Shown here: positions 1 to 51,447 of the stretch, one piece after another
How the letters are laid out: each line of letters begins with the position of its first letter
Numbering within the stretch: position 1 is the first letter of the stretch
Source: Anaeromyxobacter paludicola
Lineage (GTDB): Bacteria; Myxococcota; Myxococcia; Myxococcales; Anaeromyxobacteraceae
Assembly (NCBI RefSeq): GCF_023169965.1
Contig: NZ_AP025592.1
Coordinates: 2,728,001 to 2,792,000, forward strand
DNA length: 64,000 nt
Direction: 5' to 3'
Translations under genes and position numbers: made by a program
Notes under the pieces: model-generated
Told to the model about the DNA's origin: nothing
What the model saw: the letters and a program-made list of their open reading frames with translations, nothing else
Databases searched by the model: none

Positions 1-551
1 CGCTCGTCGGGATGGTCGGCCGGCTCGCCGAGCAGAAGGGGCTCGACCTGGTGGCCGCGGCGCTCCCCGACCTCCTGCGCCAGGACGTGCAGGTCGCGGT
101 GCTCGGGAGCGGGCGGCACGACTACGAGGAGCTCTTCCGGCGGGTGGCGCGCGAGCAGCCCGACCGGCTCGCCGCCCACGTCGGCTTCGACGAGGGGCTG
201 GCGCACCGGATCGAGGCCGGCGCCGACGTGTTCCTCATGCCGAGCCGGTTCGAGCCCTGCGGCCTCAACCAGATGTACAGCCTGCGGTACGGCACCGTGC
301 CGGTGGTCCGGGCGGTGGGCGGGCTCGAGGACACGGTCGAGGACTACGACGGGTTCCGCAGCGGCACCGGCTTCAAGTTCCGGGAGTACCAGCCGCGGGC
401 GCTCCTCACCGCCGTGCGCCGGGCCCTCGACCTCTACCGCGATCGGCGCGCCTGGGCGGGGCTCCAGGCGCGGGGCATGGCCCAGGACTTCAGCTGGGAC
501 CGGAGCGCGCAGACGTACGAGCGGCTGTTCGAGTCGCTCGCCGCGCGCTGA
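1..551 (+). CDS. glgA: Glycogen (starch) synthase, C-terminal part (5' truncated by window)
   Basis: Only the last ~182 codons are in the window; the frame is open from base 3 with no need for the internal ATG at 12. The product transfers glucose from ADP-glucose to growing glycogen (GT5 family). The fragment is the C-terminal Rossmann half: a GRLAEQKGLDLV segment typical of the family start of this domain, then RFEPCGLNQMYSLRYG, the nucleotide-sugar site with the conserved Glu, then the VGGLEDTV and GTGFKF segments that follow it in GlgA. It ends normally with TGA after a short helix. The neighbours downstream are unrelated. The family call is firm; whether the missing N-terminus is normal cannot be seen. 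Confidence 0.93.
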   Translation, partial: LVGMVGRLAEQKGLDLVAAALPDLLRQDVQVAVLGSGRHDYEELFRRVAREQPDRLAAHVGFDEGLAHRIEAGADVFLMPSRFEPCGLNQMYSLRYGTVPVVRAVGGLEDTVEDYDGFRSGTGFKFREYQPRALLTAVRRALDLYRDRRAWAGLQARGMAQDFSWDRSAQTYERLFESLAAR

Positions 552-40073: not shown

Positions 40074-42086
40074 ATGAATCGCAGGGAGTTCCTGAGGTGG
40101 ACCGCGCTCGGCGGCGCGGCGCTCGCGTTCCGGCCGAGGCTGGCCTGGGCCTTTTCCCAGACGGTGAAGCTGCGCAAGTTCATCCAGCCCTTGCCCGGGC
40201 TGGGCGCGGGCGGGATCCCGCTCGCGACGCCGGACCGCGCCTCCATCCCCGGCACCGACCTCTACACCATCGAGGCCGGCGAGTACCGCCACCAGTTCCA
40301 CCCCGACCTGCCGCCCTCCCGGCTGTGGGGCTACGCCGATCTGAACGGCGTGCACGGCTACCTCGGCGGCCTCATCGTCGCCACGCGGGACCGGCCGGTC
40401 CGGCTCCGGGTCCACAACCGGCTGCCGGCGCAGCACCCGCTCCCGGTCGATCGCACCCTCTGCGGCGCCGAGGGCCCGGACAACCGCATCGCGGTCCATC
40501 TCCACGGCGGGTTCGTGCCCTGGACCAGCGACGGCGGGCCGACCTCCTGGTTCTCGCCCGGGAACCTGCAGGGCGAGACCTGCCTCAACCGCAACCCCGA
40601 CGGCTCGGCCGAGTACTACTACCCGAACCAGCAGTCCGCGCGGCTCATGTGGTACCACGACCACGCCATGGGCATCACCCGGCTCAACGCCTACGCCGGG
40701 CTGGCCACGGGCTACCTCGTGACCGACGACGTCGAGCAGGGCTTCCTCTCCGGCGGCGCCCTGCCCTCCATCGGCATCCCGCTCGTCCTCCAGGAGAAGA
40801 CCTTCGTGGACGGCAAGGATCCCAACTACACCTGGGGCCAGGTCGGCGACCTCTGGTACCCGTACCTCTACGAGTGGCAGAGCCCGACCGGCCGCTGGGA
40901 CTACGCGCCCTTCGCGGAGCCGCCGGGCGCGGTCTCGGGGCCGCTGCCGGTGCCCTCCTGCGTCCCGGAGTTCTTCGCCGACACGCCGGTGGTGAACGGC
41001 GCCGCCTACCCCTACCTCGAGGTGCAGCCGCGCCACTACCGGTTCCGGATCCTGAACGGCTCGCAGGCGCGCTTCTACAACCTGCAGCTCTACTACGCCG
41101 ACGCCAGCGGCGCCGAGGCGAACCTCGGCCGGCCCGGCCCGGCCATGGTCCAGATCGGCACCGAGGGCGGCTTCCTCCCCGCGCCGGTGACGCTCAACGC
41201 GCCGCCGCAGCCGATCGGCTTCGACCCGGCCGGCAACGCGGTCCGCTACACGCTCCTGCTCGCGCCGGCCGAGCGGGCCGACATCGTCATCGACTTCTCC
41301 AACGTGCCGCCCGGCTCGCGGCTCGTCCTCTACAACGACGCCCCGGCGCCGTTCCCCATGGGCGACCCGCTCAACGACTACTTCACCGGCGACCCCGACC
41401 AGACCGCCGCGGGCGGCGCGCCCACCACGAGAGCCGGCTTCGGGCCCAACACCCGCACCCTCCTCCAGTTCCGCGTCCTGCCGCTCCAGGGCGCCCGCGA
41501 TCCCGCCTCCTACGACGCCATCGCGCGCGGCCTCGTCCCGCTGCCGCCCGTGCCGGCGCTCGATCCCGCCCACGCCAAGGTCCGCGACCTCACGCTCAAC
41601 GAGGACTTCGACGAGCTGGGCCGGCTCATCCAGCGGCTCGGCACCGCCAGGCAGGCCGGGGTGGACAGCCAGGGGCTGCCGACCTGGGGCCGCAACTACA
41701 TGGACCCGGCCACCGAGACGCCGCGGGCCGGCGACGTCGAGGTCTGGCGCGTCTTCAACCTCACCGGCGACACCCACCCCGTGCACTTCCACCTCGTCAA
41801 CGTCCAGGTGCTGTCGCGCCAGCCGTTCGACCCGGGCGCCTGGAACGGGAAGCCGCGCTTCACCGGCCCGGCTCGCCCGCCCGACGCCAACGAGCGGGGC
41901 TGGAAGGAGACGGTGCGGATGAACCCCGGCGAGTGCACCACGGTCATCATGCGCTTCGACCTGCCGCAGGTGCCCTTCGCCGTGCCGCAGAGCCCGCGCA
42001 CCGGCGGCTACGAGTACGTCTGGCACTGCCACATCCTCGAGCACGAGGAGCACGACATGATGCGGCCGCTGGTCGTGACGCCGTGA
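40074..42086 (+). CDS. Tat-exported multicopper oxidase (CotA/laccase-like)
   Basis: 670 residues. Oxidises a phenol or metal substrate with O2 reduced to water; export through Tat is shown by MNRREFLRWTALGGAALAF. The four copper motifs are intact: HLHGG (His142, His144), WYHDHAMG (His195, His197), HPVHFH (His568, His571, His573) and HCHILEHEEHDMM (His651, Cys652, His653, His657, and Met662 as type-1 axial ligand). Domain order is normal for three cupredoxin domains. Longer than CotA (~510) because of Pro/Gly-rich loops. Strong ribosome site (aggggagg, 40061-40068) preceded by a short hairpin (40045-40060). Function could be bilirubin-oxidase-like, manganese or copper oxidation. Confidence 0.92.
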   Translation: MNRREFLRWTALGGAALAFRPRLAWAFSQTVKLRKFIQPLPGLGAGGIPLATPDRASIPGTDLYTIEAGEYRHQFHPDLPPSRLWGYADLNGVHGYLGGLIVATRDRPVRLRVHNRLPAQHPLPVDRTLCGAEGPDNRIAVHLHGGFVPWTSDGGPTSWFSPGNLQGETCLNRNPDGSAEYYYPNQQSARLMWYHDHAMGITRLNAYAGLATGYLVTDDVEQGFLSGGALPSIGIPLVLQEKTFVDGKDPNYTWGQVGDLWYPYLYEWQSPTGRWDYAPFAEPPGAVSGPLPVPSCVPEFFADTPVVNGAAYPYLEVQPRHYRFRILNGSQARFYNLQLYYADASGAEANLGRPGPAMVQIGTEGGFLPAPVTLNAPPQPIGFDPAGNAVRYTLLLAPAERADIVIDFSNVPPGSRLVLYNDAPAPFPMGDPLNDYFTGDPDQTAAGGAPTTRAGFGPNTRTLLQFRVLPLQGARDPASYDAIARGLVPLPPVPALDPAHAKVRDLTLNEDFDELGRLIQRLGTARQAGVDSQGLPTWGRNYMDPATETPRAGDVEVWRVFNLTGDTHPVHFHLVNVQVLSRQPFDPGAWNGKPRFTGPARPPDANERGWKETVRMNPGECTTVIMRFDLPQVPFAVPQSPRTGGYEYVWHCHILEHEEHDMMRPLVVTP

Positions 42087-44442: not shown

Positions 44443-45123
44443 TCAGCGCACCTTCACGCCCATCGCCAGGCCCTCCTCGGTCGGGAGCATGGTGGCGCGG
44501 AGGCGGCCGCCCTTCGCGAGCCGCTCGTTGAAGCGCTTCAGCGCCTCGACGCCCTCGGGCGCGTGGCGCCCCTCGTAGCGCTCCTGCGCCACGCCGCCCC
44601 AGCCGAAGGCGTTGTCGGCGAGCACCGTGCCGCCGACGCGGAGGTTCTCCTCCGCCCAGGCGAGGTACTCGGGGTAGCCGGTCTTGTCGGCGTCGATGAA
44701 GACCAGGTCGAACGGCCCCTCGCGATCGATCTCGCGCAGCGCGACCCGCGCGTCGCCGACGTGGAGCCGGACCTGCCGCTCGAGCCCGGCCCGGCGGAAG
44801 GTCTCGGCGGCCACCTCGGCGGTGGCGGGCTCGCGCTCGAAGGTGTGGAGGAGGCCGCCCTCGCCCATGCCGCGCAGCAGGCAGACGCCGCTGTACCCGC
44901 CCAGCGTCCCGATCTCGACCGCCCGCCGCGCCCCCGCGGCGCGCGCCAGCACCTCGAGGTGCAGCCCGTCGAACGGGCCCACCTGGATCGGCCGCAGCCC
45001 GGCCGCGACGGTGCGCTCCCGGATCTCGCGCAGGAGCGGGTCCTCCGGCTGGAACACCCGGTCCACCCAGCGCGCCAGCTCCTCGCTGCCCTGCCCGAAG
45101 CCCTTCTCGCCCGCCGCGCTCAT
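44443..45123 (-). CDS. Class I SAM-dependent O-methyltransferase (catechol/caffeoyl-CoA type)
   Basis: 226 residues. Motifs: RRAVEIGTLGGYSGVCLLRGM (motif I), LHTFEREPATAEVAAETFRRAG (acidic residue at the ribose position), and FDLVFIDADKTGYPEYLAWAEENLRVGGTVLADNAFGWG, the DxDK metal-binding and catalytic region of the AdoMet-dependent catechol/caffeoyl-CoA family. It ends with a normal MGVKVR strand. The ATG overlaps the TGA of the thioredoxin-fold gene at 45120 (ATGA), so the two are coupled. The substrate cannot be read. Confidence 0.93.
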   Translation of the reverse strand: MSAAGEKGFGQGSEELARWVDRVFQPEDPLLREIRERTVAAGLRPIQVGPFDGLHLEVLARAAGARRAVEIGTLGGYSGVCLLRGMGEGGLLHTFEREPATAEVAAETFRRAGLERQVRLHVGDARVALREIDREGPFDLVFIDADKTGYPEYLAWAEENLRVGGTVLADNAFGWGGVAQERYEGRHAPEGVEALKRFNERLAKGGRLRATMLPTEEGLAMGVKVR

Positions 45124-46517
45124 GGCCGCGCTCCCGATCCTGGCTCGTCGCCGAGCCGCCGCTGCATCTTCGAGAGGATGCGCTCCTCGCGCGCCCCGCG
45201 CTGGCCCGGGGGGAGCGCGGCGCCGTAGGCCACCGCCTCGGAGAGCAGGGCGCGCTCGCCGGGGCGATCGCCCTTCCTCGCGAGGATGGAGGCGGCGAGC
45301 TCGTAGACCCGGAGCTTGCGCGGGCCGTAGACGCGGGAGAGGGCGCGCCGCGCCGCGTCGAGCGCCTCGTCCTCGCGCCCGAGCTCGCGGTAGAGCAGCG
45401 CCAGCCGCGCCGGCGGGTTGTAGTCGGCCGGGAGCGCCTGCTCCGAGGCGAGCAGCGCCGGGACCGCCCGCGCCGGATCCCCCAGGGCGAGCGCCGCCTC
45501 CACGCGCGCCGAGTCGAACGCCGCGCGGGCCTCGGGGCCGGGCGCCCGGGCGGCGCGCTCCTCGAGGTAGCGCCACCAGCGCTCGGCCACCGCCCGCGCC
45601 CCGGCCGCGTCGCCGCGCGCCTCGCGGGCCGAGGCGAGCTCGCCGTAGAGCCCGGCCACGTCGTCCTCGAGGGCGCCCTTCGCCTCGAGCCCCTCGCGCC
45701 CGAGCCGCTCCAGCCGGTCGAGGGCCGCCGCGCGCCAGGGCGCCGACTCGGGGGCCGAGAGCGCGCACGAGAGCGCCAGCGCGGCGGCGTTGGCGAAGCT
45801 GCCGTCGCGCGCCAGCCCGGGGAGGAAGGCCTGGCCGTCGCGGGCGCAGCCCTCCCAGTCCTCCACCTCGCTCGCGGCGAGGAGCAGCGCCCCGAGCGCG
45901 CGCCCGCGGCCGGCCCACCCCGGCCCGCCGCGGGCGAGCGCCTCGCGGTAGAGCGGGATCGCCTCCGCGACCTGGCGGGCCCCGTGGGCGCGGTCGGCGC
46001 GCGCGAGCGCCGCGTCGGCCGGACCGGACCGCGCCGCGGTCTCGGCCCCGAGCCGCACGGCCCGCTCGCCGTCGGCGAGGAGCCGCACCAGATCCCCGTG
46101 CCCCGCGCTGCCGAGCCACTTGAGCACGGCGCGCTCCTCGACCGGCTCGATCACGAAGAGCGTCGGCCAGGCGTCCATCGGGAACCGCTCGAGGAAGGGC
46201 GCGTTCCCGGGCTTCTCGGTGTCGATGCTGAGCCAGACGAACCGCCCGGCCTGCTTCCGGAGCCTCGGGTCGGTGAAGACCTGGGCCCGCATGAAGCGGC
46301 AGGTGTGTCACCAGGGCGCCCAGGCGTCCACGAAGAGCGGGAGCTTGCGCGCCCGCGCGAGCGCCAGCGCCTTCGGGTAGTCGTCCTCGATGAAGGGGAG
46401 CGCGGGGCGCGGCGCCGCCCGGGCGCGCGACACGGCGCCGCCGGACGTGGCCGCGGCCGGCGAGAGCGGGGCCGCCGCGGAGAGGGCGGCGAGGAGCGTG
46501 GCGGCGGCGAGCCTCAT
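45120..46517 (-). CDS. Thioredoxin-fold/TPR protein with in-frame TGA (candidate UxxC selenoprotein)
   Basis: 465 codons from ATG 46517. A signal peptide (MRLAAATLLAALSAAAPLSPAAA) leads to a thioredoxin-fold segment FIEDDYPKALALARARKLPLFVDAWAPW, then TGA at codon 70 (46308-46310), then HTCRFMRAQVF. Thioredoxins have WAPWCxxC here, so the TGA stands exactly for the first active-site Cys (Sec70-x-x-Cys73). The rest of the fold follows: the cis-Pro loop DAWPTLFVIE, and then five or more TPR-like helix pairs to the end. The frame is open for 395 codons after the TGA, and the stop overlaps the O-methyltransferase start as ATGA. Reading as two separate ORFs (to 46308 and from 46292) is the conventional annotation. 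Alternatives are a single-base TGC-to-TGA mutation or sequencing error. Confidence 0.8.
46279..46304 (-). ncRNA. Possible SECIS-like stem-loop just after the in-frame TGA
   Basis: On the minus strand ACCUG-CCGC-UUCAU-GCGG-(GCC)-CAGGU: four plus five base pairs, a three-base bulge and a five-base loop, starting three bases after the TGA. Its apical loop begins ~12 bases after the TGA and has no G in its first two positions, so it does not fit the usual bacterial SECIS rule. A second hairpin at RNA positions ~30-43 (GGUC/GACC) is an alternative. Confidence 0.3.
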
Positions 46518-46708
46518 GGTGGCGGGCAATATACCGGCGAAGCGGCGGGGCGTCCGCTCGGAAGCGGACGGACGAGCGGGCCCCGCCCGCCTCGCGCGCC
46601 TTGCGCGCGGCGGCGCGAGCGCGTGAGCCGGCGTCACTTGCGGGTGTGGGACCGGGTGCGCAGGTTCGTCGCCACCGCCTGATGAACACCCTGACGACCG
46701 AGGTCTCC

Positions 46709-47834: not shown

Positions 47835-48299
47835 TCACCGGCGCTTCAGCGCGAGCCCCATCGTGAAGCGCGCCACCGGCTCGTCGCCGTACCTCGCGGG
47901 GACGGTGGCCAGCACCTCGACCGGCACCACCTCGCGCTCCCCGGACGCCTCGGTGCGCAGGAGCGCGTCCTTCACCTCGCGCCCCTGCCGCATCTCGAAG
48001 CGCACGTCGCCGTCGGCGCGCTTCAGGAACTCGGCCTTCACGTCCTTGAAGACGAGCTGCACGCCCCGGTGGCCGCCGAACCAGATGAGCTTCGCCGCGT
48101 TCAGGCCGGCGGCGACGTCGGCGCCGGCGCAGAGCGCGCCGAAGTACATCGAGCCGAGGTGGTTGCGCGACCGGAGCCCGAGCGGGATGGAGATGGCGCA
48201 GCCCTCCTCGTCGAGCCGCTCCACCCGCGGGCCGAGGAAGAGGAGCACCGGGATGCGGAGCCCGAGCAGCCGGACGAGCGCGGTTTCCTTGAGGAGCAC
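47835..48299 (-). CDS. DUF4442/PaaI-like hot-dog thioesterase
   Basis: 154 residues from GTG 48299. Hot-dog fold with LGLRSRNHLGSMYFGALCAGADVAAGLNA, the central helix with the conserved NHxGSxY pattern of the DUF4442 family, and the beta-sheet segments VQLVFKDVKAEFLKRADGDVRFE and VPVEVLATVPARYGDEPVARF. Likely hydrolyses an acyl-CoA or acyl carrier thioester. No operon partner close by. Confidence 0.85.
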   Translation of the reverse strand: MLLKETALVRLLGLRIPVLLFLGPRVERLDEEGCAISIPLGLRSRNHLGSMYFGALCAGADVAAGLNAAKLIWFGGHRGVQLVFKDVKAEFLKRADGDVRFEMRQGREVKDALLRTEASGEREVVPVEVLATVPARYGDEPVARFTMGLALKRR

Positions 48300-48369
48300 G
48301 AGGGACCTCCCGACGGGAGTGTAAGCGGGCGGGGGATCGGCTGCCGCGCCAACGCGCCGGGACGCCGGG

Positions 48370-49683
48370 TCAGGCCGCCTGGAAGGCCGCCATCCGGTAG
48401 CGCCGCGCCACGAGCACGAACAGCACCGTGCAGGCGAGGACCAGGCCGGCGAAGAACGCGAAGTAGGCCGCGCCCTGGAAGCGGTTCAGCTCCGACACCC
48501 AGGCCGTGAGGAGGTTGCCGGCGGCGATGGTGAGGAACCAGAGGCTCATCACGGTGCTCTTCATGCTCCGGGGGGCCTGGGTGTAGGCGAGCTCGAGGGC
48601 GGTCACCGAGACCAGCACCTCGCCCACGGTGAGGAAGAGGTACTGCACCGCCTGCCAGGCCGCGGGCGGGTGGCCGCCGGCGTCGATGGCGCGCTGCAGG
48701 AGCGCCGCGCAGACGAAGGAGAGCGTGGTGCAGACCATCCCCGTCGCGATGCGCCGGAGCGGCGTCGGGTCGAGGCCGCGCCGCTCGAGCCAGGGGAAGA
48801 CCACCCCGCTGAAGAGCGGGATGATCCCGAGCACCAGGATCGGGTTCATCGCCGAGAGCTGCGACGGCTGCAGCGTCACGCCGCCGAGCCGCAGGTCCAG
48901 CGCCCGCGCCTGGATCACCCAGGACGAGCCGTGCTGGTCGAAGAGCGCCCAGAAGCCGAGGAGCGCGGCGAAGAGCCCCATCACGCGCCAGGCGGCGGCG
49001 GCGCCGGCCACCGCCTCGGGCGGGTGGCGATCCTCGCGCCCGCGCAGCCGCGAGAGGGTGACGCGCAGGAAGCCGTGCGGGTTGGGACCGGTGGGGGGCA
49101 CGTGCCGGTAGTGGCGCCGCCCGGCGAGGAAGACGACCAGCGCGAGGGCCATGAGGACGCCGGGGAGCCCGAACGCGACCCGCGGGCCGAAGCGCGCCAG
49201 GAGCCAGGGGATGAGCAGGGTCGAGCTGAACGAGCCCATGTTCACCGACCAGTAGAAGAGCGCGTACACCTTCTCGACCAGCTTCTCCTGCCCCTCCCGG
49301 AACTGGTCGCCGACGAAGGCGGAGACGCACGGCTTGATCCCGCCCGAGCCCGCGGCGATGAGGGCGAGCCCGGCGTAGAGCCCGGCGCGGCTCTCGAAGA
49401 GCGCGATCACGGCGTGTCCCGCCACGTAGCCGAGCGAGAGCCACAGGATCACCGCGTAGCGCCCGAAGAACCGGTCGGCGAGCCACCCGCCGGCGAGCGG
49501 CGTGAGGTAGCAGGCCATGACGAAGAGGTGGTAGTTGGCGGCCGCCTCGTGGTCGGGCAGGCCGAGCCAGCCGGCCATGTAGACGGTCAGGATCGAGCGC
49601 ATCCCGTAGAACGAGAAGCGCTCGCACCCCTCGTTCCCGACGATGTACCGGATCTGCGGCGGGAACCGCTCCGCCGCGCTCAC
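48370..49683 (-). CDS. POT-family proton-dependent oligopeptide transporter, copy 2
   Basis: 437 residues with 12 membrane helices. The POT signature is FPPQIRYIVGNEGCERFSFYGMRSILTVYM at the start (ExxERFxYYG), then YLTPLAGGWLADRFFGRY and GGIKPCVSAFVGDQF, the substrate/proton motif. Imports di- or tripeptides with protons. It starts at GTG 49683, overlapping the stop of copy 1 (GTGA). Copy 1 and copy 2 are clear tandem paralogues (~50 per cent alike by eye). Confidence 0.95.
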   Translation of the reverse strand: MSAAERFPPQIRYIVGNEGCERFSFYGMRSILTVYMAGWLGLPDHEAAANYHLFVMACYLTPLAGGWLADRFFGRYAVILWLSLGYVAGHAVIALFESRAGLYAGLALIAAGSGGIKPCVSAFVGDQFREGQEKLVEKVYALFYWSVNMGSFSSTLLIPWLLARFGPRVAFGLPGVLMALALVVFLAGRRHYRHVPPTGPNPHGFLRVTLSRLRGREDRHPPEAVAGAAAAWRVMGLFAALLGFWALFDQHGSSWVIQARALDLRLGGVTLQPSQLSAMNPILVLGIIPLFSGVVFPWLERRGLDPTPLRRIATGMVCTTLSFVCAALLQRAIDAGGHPPAAWQAVQYLFLTVGEVLVSVTALELAYTQAPRSMKSTVMSLWFLTIAAGNLLTAWVSELNRFQGAAYFAFFAGLVLACTVLFVLVARRYRMAAFQAA

Positions 49684-51068
49684 GCCGCCTCCTCGCCGGC
49701 CACCGGCCAGTCGGCCCCGCGGTAGCGCCGGGCCACCGCGACGTACCAGAGCGCGCACCCCAGCATCAGCCAGGCGAAGAAGGCGAAGTAGGCGGTGCCG
49801 TGGAACCGGTTCGCGGCCGACACCAGCGCGGTGACGAAGTTGCCGAGCCCGATGGCGAAGTACCAGAGCCCCATGATCGTGCTCTTCATGGTGGGCGGGG
49901 CCTGCGTGTAGGCGAACTCGAGCGCGGTCACCGAGACCAGCACCTCTCCCATGGAGACGAAGAGGTACTGCGGGACCTGCCAGGCCACGCTCACCGGGAT
50001 CCCCGCCTCGAGCGCGTGCTCCACCAGCCAGGCCGCCACGAACGAGAGCACGGTGACGAACATGCCGGCCCCCATCTTGCGGAGCGCCGTCACCTGCACC
50101 CCGCGCCGCTCCAGCCAGGGGTAGAGCCCGCCGGCGAAGAGCGGGATGAGCGCCATGACGAAGATCGAGTTGAGGAAGGAGACCTGCGAGGAGGCGAGGT
50201 GCAGCCCGAGCACCTCGCGGTCCATCCGCTCCGCCTGCAGCACCCACGACGAGCCGTACTGGAAGAAGAGCGCCCAGAAGCCGACGATGGGGGCGAAGAT
50301 CCCGCAGACGCCGAGCACCGCGCGGGCGCCGGCGATCGCCTCCGGAGGGTGGCGCGTGGCGGCGCGGGAGAGGAGGCCCGCGCCCGGGGCCGCGGGCGCC
50401 CCGCGCGCCGCGAGGGCGTCCCGGACCACCGCCAGGAACCCGTGCGGCCGCGGCCCGCTGGGCGCGAGGTACCGGTAGCGCCGGCGCCCCAGCCAGAAGA
50501 CCAGCAGCGCCACCGCCATGGCGAGCCCCGGCAGCCCGAAGGCGACGCGCGGCCCGACCCGGTCGAGCAGGAGCGGGATGGCGAGCGTGCCCACCGTCGA
50601 GCCCAGGTTGATCATCCAGTAGTAGAGGTCGTAGACCTTCTTCAGGAGCCCGCGGTTCTCGCGCGTGAACTGGTCGCCCACGAAGGCCGCGGCGCAGGGC
50701 TTGATGCCGCCCGCGCCGACCGCGATGAGCGCCAGGCCGGCGAACAGCCCGGCCGGGCTCTCGAAGGCGGCGATGGTGGCGTGCCCGAGGACGTACGCGA
50801 ACGAGAGCCAGAAGACGGTCCGGTAGCGCCCCCAGAACCGGTCGGCCACCCAGGCGCCGAGCAGCGGCGTGAGGTACACCGCGGTGCCGAAGAGGTGGTA
50901 GGCGGCCTCGGCGCTGCTCTCGCGCAGGAGGAGGTTCCGCACCATGTGGATGGTGAGGACCGAGGTCACGCCGTAATAGGAGAACCGCTCGCAGGCCTCG
51001 TTCCAGGCGAGGAACTTGATCTGCGGCGGGAAGCGCTGCGGGCGGTCGATCGCGCTCGGCTCGGCCAT
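49680..51068 (-). CDS. POT-family proton-dependent oligopeptide transporter, copy 1
   Basis: 462 residues from ATG 51068. POT motifs QIKFLAWNEACERFSYYGVTSVLTIHM, YLTPLLGAWVADRFWGRYR and GGIKPCAAAFVGDQFTRENRGLLKKVYDLYY are intact. A Pro/Ala/Arg-rich cytosolic loop of ~30 residues (AARGAPAAPGAGLL) lies between helix halves and is absent from copy 2. GTGA coupling to copy 2 suggests they are made together, possibly with different peptide preferences. Divergent from the rhodanese gene. Confidence 0.95.
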   Translation of the reverse strand: MAEPSAIDRPQRFPPQIKFLAWNEACERFSYYGVTSVLTIHMVRNLLLRESSAEAAYHLFGTAVYLTPLLGAWVADRFWGRYRTVFWLSFAYVLGHATIAAFESPAGLFAGLALIAVGAGGIKPCAAAFVGDQFTRENRGLLKKVYDLYYWMINLGSTVGTLAIPLLLDRVGPRVAFGLPGLAMAVALLVFWLGRRRYRYLAPSGPRPHGFLAVVRDALAARGAPAAPGAGLLSRAATRHPPEAIAGARAVLGVCGIFAPIVGFWALFFQYGSSWVLQAERMDREVLGLHLASSQVSFLNSIFVMALIPLFAGGLYPWLERRGVQVTALRKMGAGMFVTVLSFVAAWLVEHALEAGIPVSVAWQVPQYLFVSMGEVLVSVTALEFAYTQAPPTMKSTIMGLWYFAIGLGNFVTALVSAANRFHGTAYFAFFAWLMLGCALWYVAVARRYRGADWPVAGEEAA

Positions 51069-51129
51069 GTGCCGGGCAGAATGCCACACTCGCTGGCGGG
51101 CCGGGCGCCGCGCGGTTATCTCCGGCCGC

Positions 51130-51447
51130 ATGCCGGTGACGCGGCTCGGACCCTGCGAGGCCTGCCACCTCCTCGCGCGCGGCGAGGTCGACCTCGTGGA
51201 CGTGCGCGAGCTGCGCGAGTGGCTCGGCGGCCGGATCCCCGGCGCGCGCCTGGTGCCGCTCGGCCGGCTCGTCGCCGATCCGCGCGCCCACTGCCACCGC
51301 GACGGCATCCTCTTCGTGTGCGCCCACGGGGTCCGCAGCCTCGAGGCGGCGGCGGTGGCCGAGGGCGCCGGCTTCTCGCAGGTCTACAGCCTCGACGGCG
51401 GGCTCGCGGCCTGGACGGCGGAGGGGTTCCCGGTCGAGCGCGGGTGA
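51130..51447 (+). CDS. Single-domain rhodanese
   Basis: 105 residues. Transfers a sulfane sulfur to a thiol acceptor. The domain runs from CHLLARGEVDLVDVRELREWLGGRIPGARLVPL to the active-site loop ILFVCAHGVRSLEAAAVAEGAG, with Cys as the catalytic residue in CAHGVRS, and YSLDGGLAAWTAEGFPVE at the end. No signal or membrane part. Divergent from the POT pair over 61 bases. Confidence 0.93.
   Translation: MPVTRLGPCEACHLLARGEVDLVDVRELREWLGGRIPGARLVPLGRLVADPRAHCHRDGILFVCAHGVRSLEAAAVAEGAGFSQVYSLDGGLAAWTAEGFPVERG

Follow-up and report, generated by a model that had tools for sequence, protein, structure and literature searches.

Selenocysteine (Sec) in UxxC thioredoxins has long been known, and the selenoproteins of the thioredoxin (Pfam: PF00085) and thiol:disulfide interchange (Pfam: PF13098) families carry it first in the motif and have Cys homologues. 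The protein analysed here, hereafter the Trx-TPR protein, shares these features but differs from both families in its best match (Pfam: PF13899), its probable signal sequence and its 300-residue TPR superhelix. The Trx7/PDZ (seleno)protein (NF041199) likewise combines Thioredoxin_7 with Sec, but in a CxxU motif and with a PDZ domain rather than in UxxC and with TPRs (15.7 bits against a cut-off of 300), while the DsbD-type thioredoxin segment of TsoB, a rhodanese/DsbD fusion-like protein (NF045694), aligns with the Trx-TPR protein but belongs to another architecture, with a UxxxxU motif (22.9 bits against a cut-off of 805). None of the NCBIfam models reaches its cut-off with our protein. The C-terminal domain of DsbD, which is periplasmic and thioredoxin-like, is a neighbour by sequence profile (2fwe, E 2.4e-12), but the two differ, DsbD combining Cys with a membrane domain and the Trx-TPR protein Sec with TPRs. 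An N-terminal thioredoxin followed by C-terminal TPRs is also found in the CnoX/YbbN chaperedoxins, which are not known to have Sec or a signal peptide. The architecture, which an earlier note on this DNA did not recognise in connection with Sec, is thus known as such without Sec, and the sole unusual point is its occurrence together with Sec and export.

The window, a stretch of 64,000 nucleotides from the genome of Anaeromyxobacter paludicola, contains on its minus strand two ORFs in the same frame that are split by one TGA, as the earlier note described, except that the upstream ORF, when called mechanically, starts at a GTG at 46637; the true start of the gene is likely the ATG at 46517. 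Read through from this ATG, the frame encodes a single protein of 465 aa that ends at the stop TGA at 45120-45122, and the whole gene (45120..46517; 465 codons plus stop) has orthologues along its full length. The translation places the inner TGA (46308..46310, minus strand), as claimed, in WAPW-U-HTC (locally FVDAWAPW-U-HTCRFMR), at residue 70 and the first position of a UxxC motif whose resolving cysteine, Cys73 (46299..46301, minus strand), is invariant. On comparative grounds, the two apparent halves almost certainly belong to a single protein with Sec at its redox active site, since relatives have the same TGA or a Cys codon there, and nothing else. The end of the gene at 45120 overlaps by ATGA, as noted before, with a downstream gene (44443..45123, minus strand) whose product resembles, by eye, a SAM-dependent methyltransferase. 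A shared pathway with this neighbour, suggested by the overlap, was dropped, as the neighbour is kept at only 3 of 119 loci, across which the gene neighbourhood is not conserved. A scan of the window for TGAs with coding-like composition on both sides gave two other matches, both by eye ordinary gene ends. Elsewhere in the window, two adjoining genes (48101-51327, minus strand) resemble POT/PTR-type peptide transporters, and a multicopper-oxidase-like protein with a signal sequence is encoded at 40074-42086 (plus strand), both assigned by eye.

The Trx-TPR protein begins with a probable signal peptide (residues 1-24; 46446..46517, minus strand), as the earlier note had it, judged by eye and with an approximate boundary. 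Across the homologues, N termini resemble signal peptides, with lipoprotein-like starts (e.g., LLAC) in many relatives outside the family (by eye), which suggests that the protein is probably exported. The thioredoxin domain follows at residues about 44-137 (46107..46388, minus strand) and matches Thioredoxin_7 (PF13899) with 40.2 bits, above the gathering cut-off of 27. PF00085 scores 17.4 bits, below its cut-off of 23.5, which two relatives barely pass, and PF13098 also stays below its cut-off, although both models match every aligned relative with an E of 0.01 or lower. The predicted cis-Pro after the motif is P118, which is invariant in the alignment together with W66, W69, C/U70 and C73. 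The remainder, residues about 140-456 (45150..46100, minus strand), forms the TPR superhelix; its Pfam TPR matches are weak in our protein and stronger in relatives. In line with this, the AlphaFold model (pLDDT 91.9) shows strands and helices ordered as in a thioredoxin domain, and after it helices only. Searched against the PDB, the family profile matches best with 2kuc, 2lst and C-terminal domains of DsbD, and the nearest solved relatives by sequence are a disulphide isomerase, a thioredoxin and DsbD C-terminal domains. By structure, the matches are to TPR superhelices, with the N-terminal part resembling the thioredoxin-like domains of 2lst and 3f9u. The VIA-align matches say little about the thioredoxin half because TPR and 14-3-3 chains dominate them, with a few thioredoxin-like chains (e.g., 2lst and 3f9u) and YbbN absent.

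Among 124 aligned homologous copies from the order, to which a few genomes contribute two, the codon at the site is TGA in 27, TGC in 66 and TGT in 31, and no other codon occurs. The earlier note had named as refuting a situation in which close relatives all have TGC or TGT; instead, all 19 genomes of the same family with a copy covering the site, the source genome included, have TGA, and its presence in the 18 other members is far beyond what chance could explain. A pattern restricted to TGA, TGC and TGT is what an exchange of Sec and Cys produces, and neither a sequencing error nor a stop codon would give it. In a gene tree of 117 proteins, built by a quick method with the Sec residue masked and containing several long branches, about seven changes between TGA and Cys are found, at least four of them forced by well-supported branches. 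The most recent separate two proteins of 91.5% identity, one with TGA (L048) and one with TGC (L045), and two of 83.4% identity, with TGA (L056) and TGT (L053), respectively. Outside the order, matches with E < 1e-80 are confined to three further families of the same phylum, and no plasmid homologue was found. A scan of the genome contig, the motif-spanning patterns reading the codon as Cys, returned only three loci, none with TGA.

Some copies depart from this general picture. A relative of the same genus (L010; 1474-2013, minus strand) lacks the TPR region while retaining both TGA and thioredoxin domain, its ORF ending about 109 codons past the TGA and still overlapping the methyltransferase start; as the genome is a draft, this may be a misassembly. 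In genus g33, some genomes (L091, L093, L099, L100) have a tandem second copy with an altered motif (e.g., ATAGWCTAC or ALASGCVTC) beside a normal WAPWCHTC copy. In one member of the same family (G005, 100% complete), no full-length orthologue was found despite a strong tRNA-Sec, an apparent loss of the gene.

The source genome (one contig, 4.59 Mb, 99.97% complete) encodes selA, selB, selC and selD, whose presence the earlier note had made a check of its proposal. Its tRNA-Sec scores 75 bits and is called by ARAGORN as tRNA-SeC with anticodon tca; the proteins score 514 (SelA), 295 (SelB) and 391 bits (SelD). SelD has an in-frame TGA of its own at SHGAG-U-AC, and the formate dehydrogenases of the genome carry TGA in U-H-x-P. 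The organism is therefore equipped for Sec and has other genes that need the machinery. Counted by hand, 26 of the 27 genomes with TGA have a tRNA-Sec above 60 bits, the exception being an 80%-complete draft, and a complete genome with neither tRNA-Sec nor SelB over the cut-off (G076) has TGT at the site.

The RNA downstream of the TGA gave a divided answer, with a structured stretch specific to TGA genes but no canonical SECIS loop. Compared with shuffles that preserve peptide and codon usage, the 60-nt stretch that follows the TGA (+4..+63, with the U of UGA as +1) folds with a mean z of -1.58 in TGA genes (n=26) and of 0.02 in Cys genes (n=97), which, since the sequences are related and the z-scores non-independent, supports Sec decoding without deciding it. 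The excess is modest in the window gene by itself (z -1.1), and windows from +49 onward show none. The prediction gives a long hairpin spanning +8 to +65 (46246..46303, minus strand), with an apical stem at +30..33/+40..43. In two versions of it, the pairs form in 74-77% of cells in TGA copies and 53-58% in Cys copies, a comparison biased by the derivation of the structures from the TGA copies; there is little covariation, and RNAalifold on the TGA copies gives two short hairpins only. Under the published bSECIS model (PMC13188914), the apical loop lies 16-37 nt from the UGA and has a G as its first or second base; scanning the window gene with these constraints gave no solution, while selD (loop GUC) and three fdhA copies (GGUCU or AGUCU) of the same genome conform to it. 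A subset of putative bacterial SECIS elements violates this model (PMC13188914), so that the canonical form is a usual rather than a defining feature, and the putative, non-canonical element of the window either represents another class of SECIS or has a true structure other than the predicted one. A GTC at +31..33, considered as a signal for SelB, was rejected, as it occurs in 26 of 26 TGA copies but also in 74 of 93 Cys copies.

Two other readings of the TGA have to be weighed against these observations. It could be a real stop, in a decayed gene, through a sequencing error or between two genes, the second starting at the ATG at 46292; calling with table 11 does yield two ORFs, with this ATG lying six codons past the TGA. 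Such a start would, however, remove the thioredoxin motif, the Cys orthologues are single ORFs, and the same TGA is retained in 27 genomes with both halves of the protein conserved, so that we find a real stop scarcely credible. The UGA could also be read through without SelB, with insertion of Cys, Trp or another residue, for which the missing canonical SECIS loop might be adduced; with tRNA-Sec present in all but one of the TGA genomes, TGA exchanging with Cys codons only and the fold excess confined to TGA copies, we consider this very unlikely. It is instead highly probable that the TGA encodes Sec in a UxxC motif, decoded by SelB, in a probably exported Thioredoxin_7-TPR protein that would likely act as a periplasmic thiol-disulfide reductase. 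The earlier proposal of Sec at a thioredoxin active site is thus upheld by orthologues with Cys or TGA, the machinery and the TGA-specific RNA structure.

Comparative sequence evidence shows the equivalence of TGA and Cys, the Sec machinery and the predicted fold; we infer decoding in the cell, export, redox direction, electron donor and clients in the following scheme. In thioredoxins, the nucleophile at the first position of the motif attacks disulfides and the second Cys resolves the bond. Here, SelB and the Sec-tRNA would decode the UGA, aided by structured RNA directly after it; the selenolate of residue 70 would attack a substrate disulfide, Cys73 would resolve the mixed bond, and a DsbD-like protein encoded elsewhere in the genome would reload the electrons. 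The source genome does encode a DsbD-like Cys paralogue (L011), which could be this supplier. The TPR surface probably holds client proteins. The main functional rival to a dedicated reductase is a periplasmic chaperedoxin, in which the TPRs hold unfolding clients and the Sec-thioredoxin protects or repairs their thiols. The domain order is that of YbbN/CnoX, and YbbN is listed by Foldseek as match 24 of the model, but its global superposition is poor (TM 0.19/0.31, rmsd 25), the thioredoxin subfamily is another (PF13899) and the Trx-TPR protein is probably exported, which makes this role rather unlikely.

A further question is whether this selenoprotein has been catalogued before. A table in the 2006 survey gives "thioredoxin (2)" for the selenoproteins of Anaeromyxobacter dehalogenans (PMC1794560), and in a PF00085 search of five genomes of the family, the Trx-TPR protein is the sole TGA-bearing match; it may therefore have been one of these two. 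On the other hand, no Trx-TPR family is included or mentioned in an inventory from 2026 that covers 119 families of selenoproteins. The main text of the deep-Sep study (PMC12013277) makes no mention of thioredoxin, TPR or myxobacteria. We judge the chances of an earlier count to be even, and the Trx-TPR proteins may form a new family, albeit one possibly counted in 2006. Our wider reading, of an uncatalogued family of exported Trx-TPR selenoproteins in Myxococcota, with a longer, non-canonical SECIS where selD and fdhA keep the canonical one, and with several switches between Sec and Cys, even within genera that retain the Sec machinery, is put forward as a tentative possibility.

Standard gene calling splits or truncates the Trx-TPR protein in many myxobacteria, and the protein becomes whole again once the TGA is taken as Sec. 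For SECIS elements of bacteria that depart from the standard model, the gene can serve as a test case, and the pair of TGA and Cys proteins with 91.5% identity, both from genomes with Sec machinery, offers a natural experiment on keeping versus dropping selenium.
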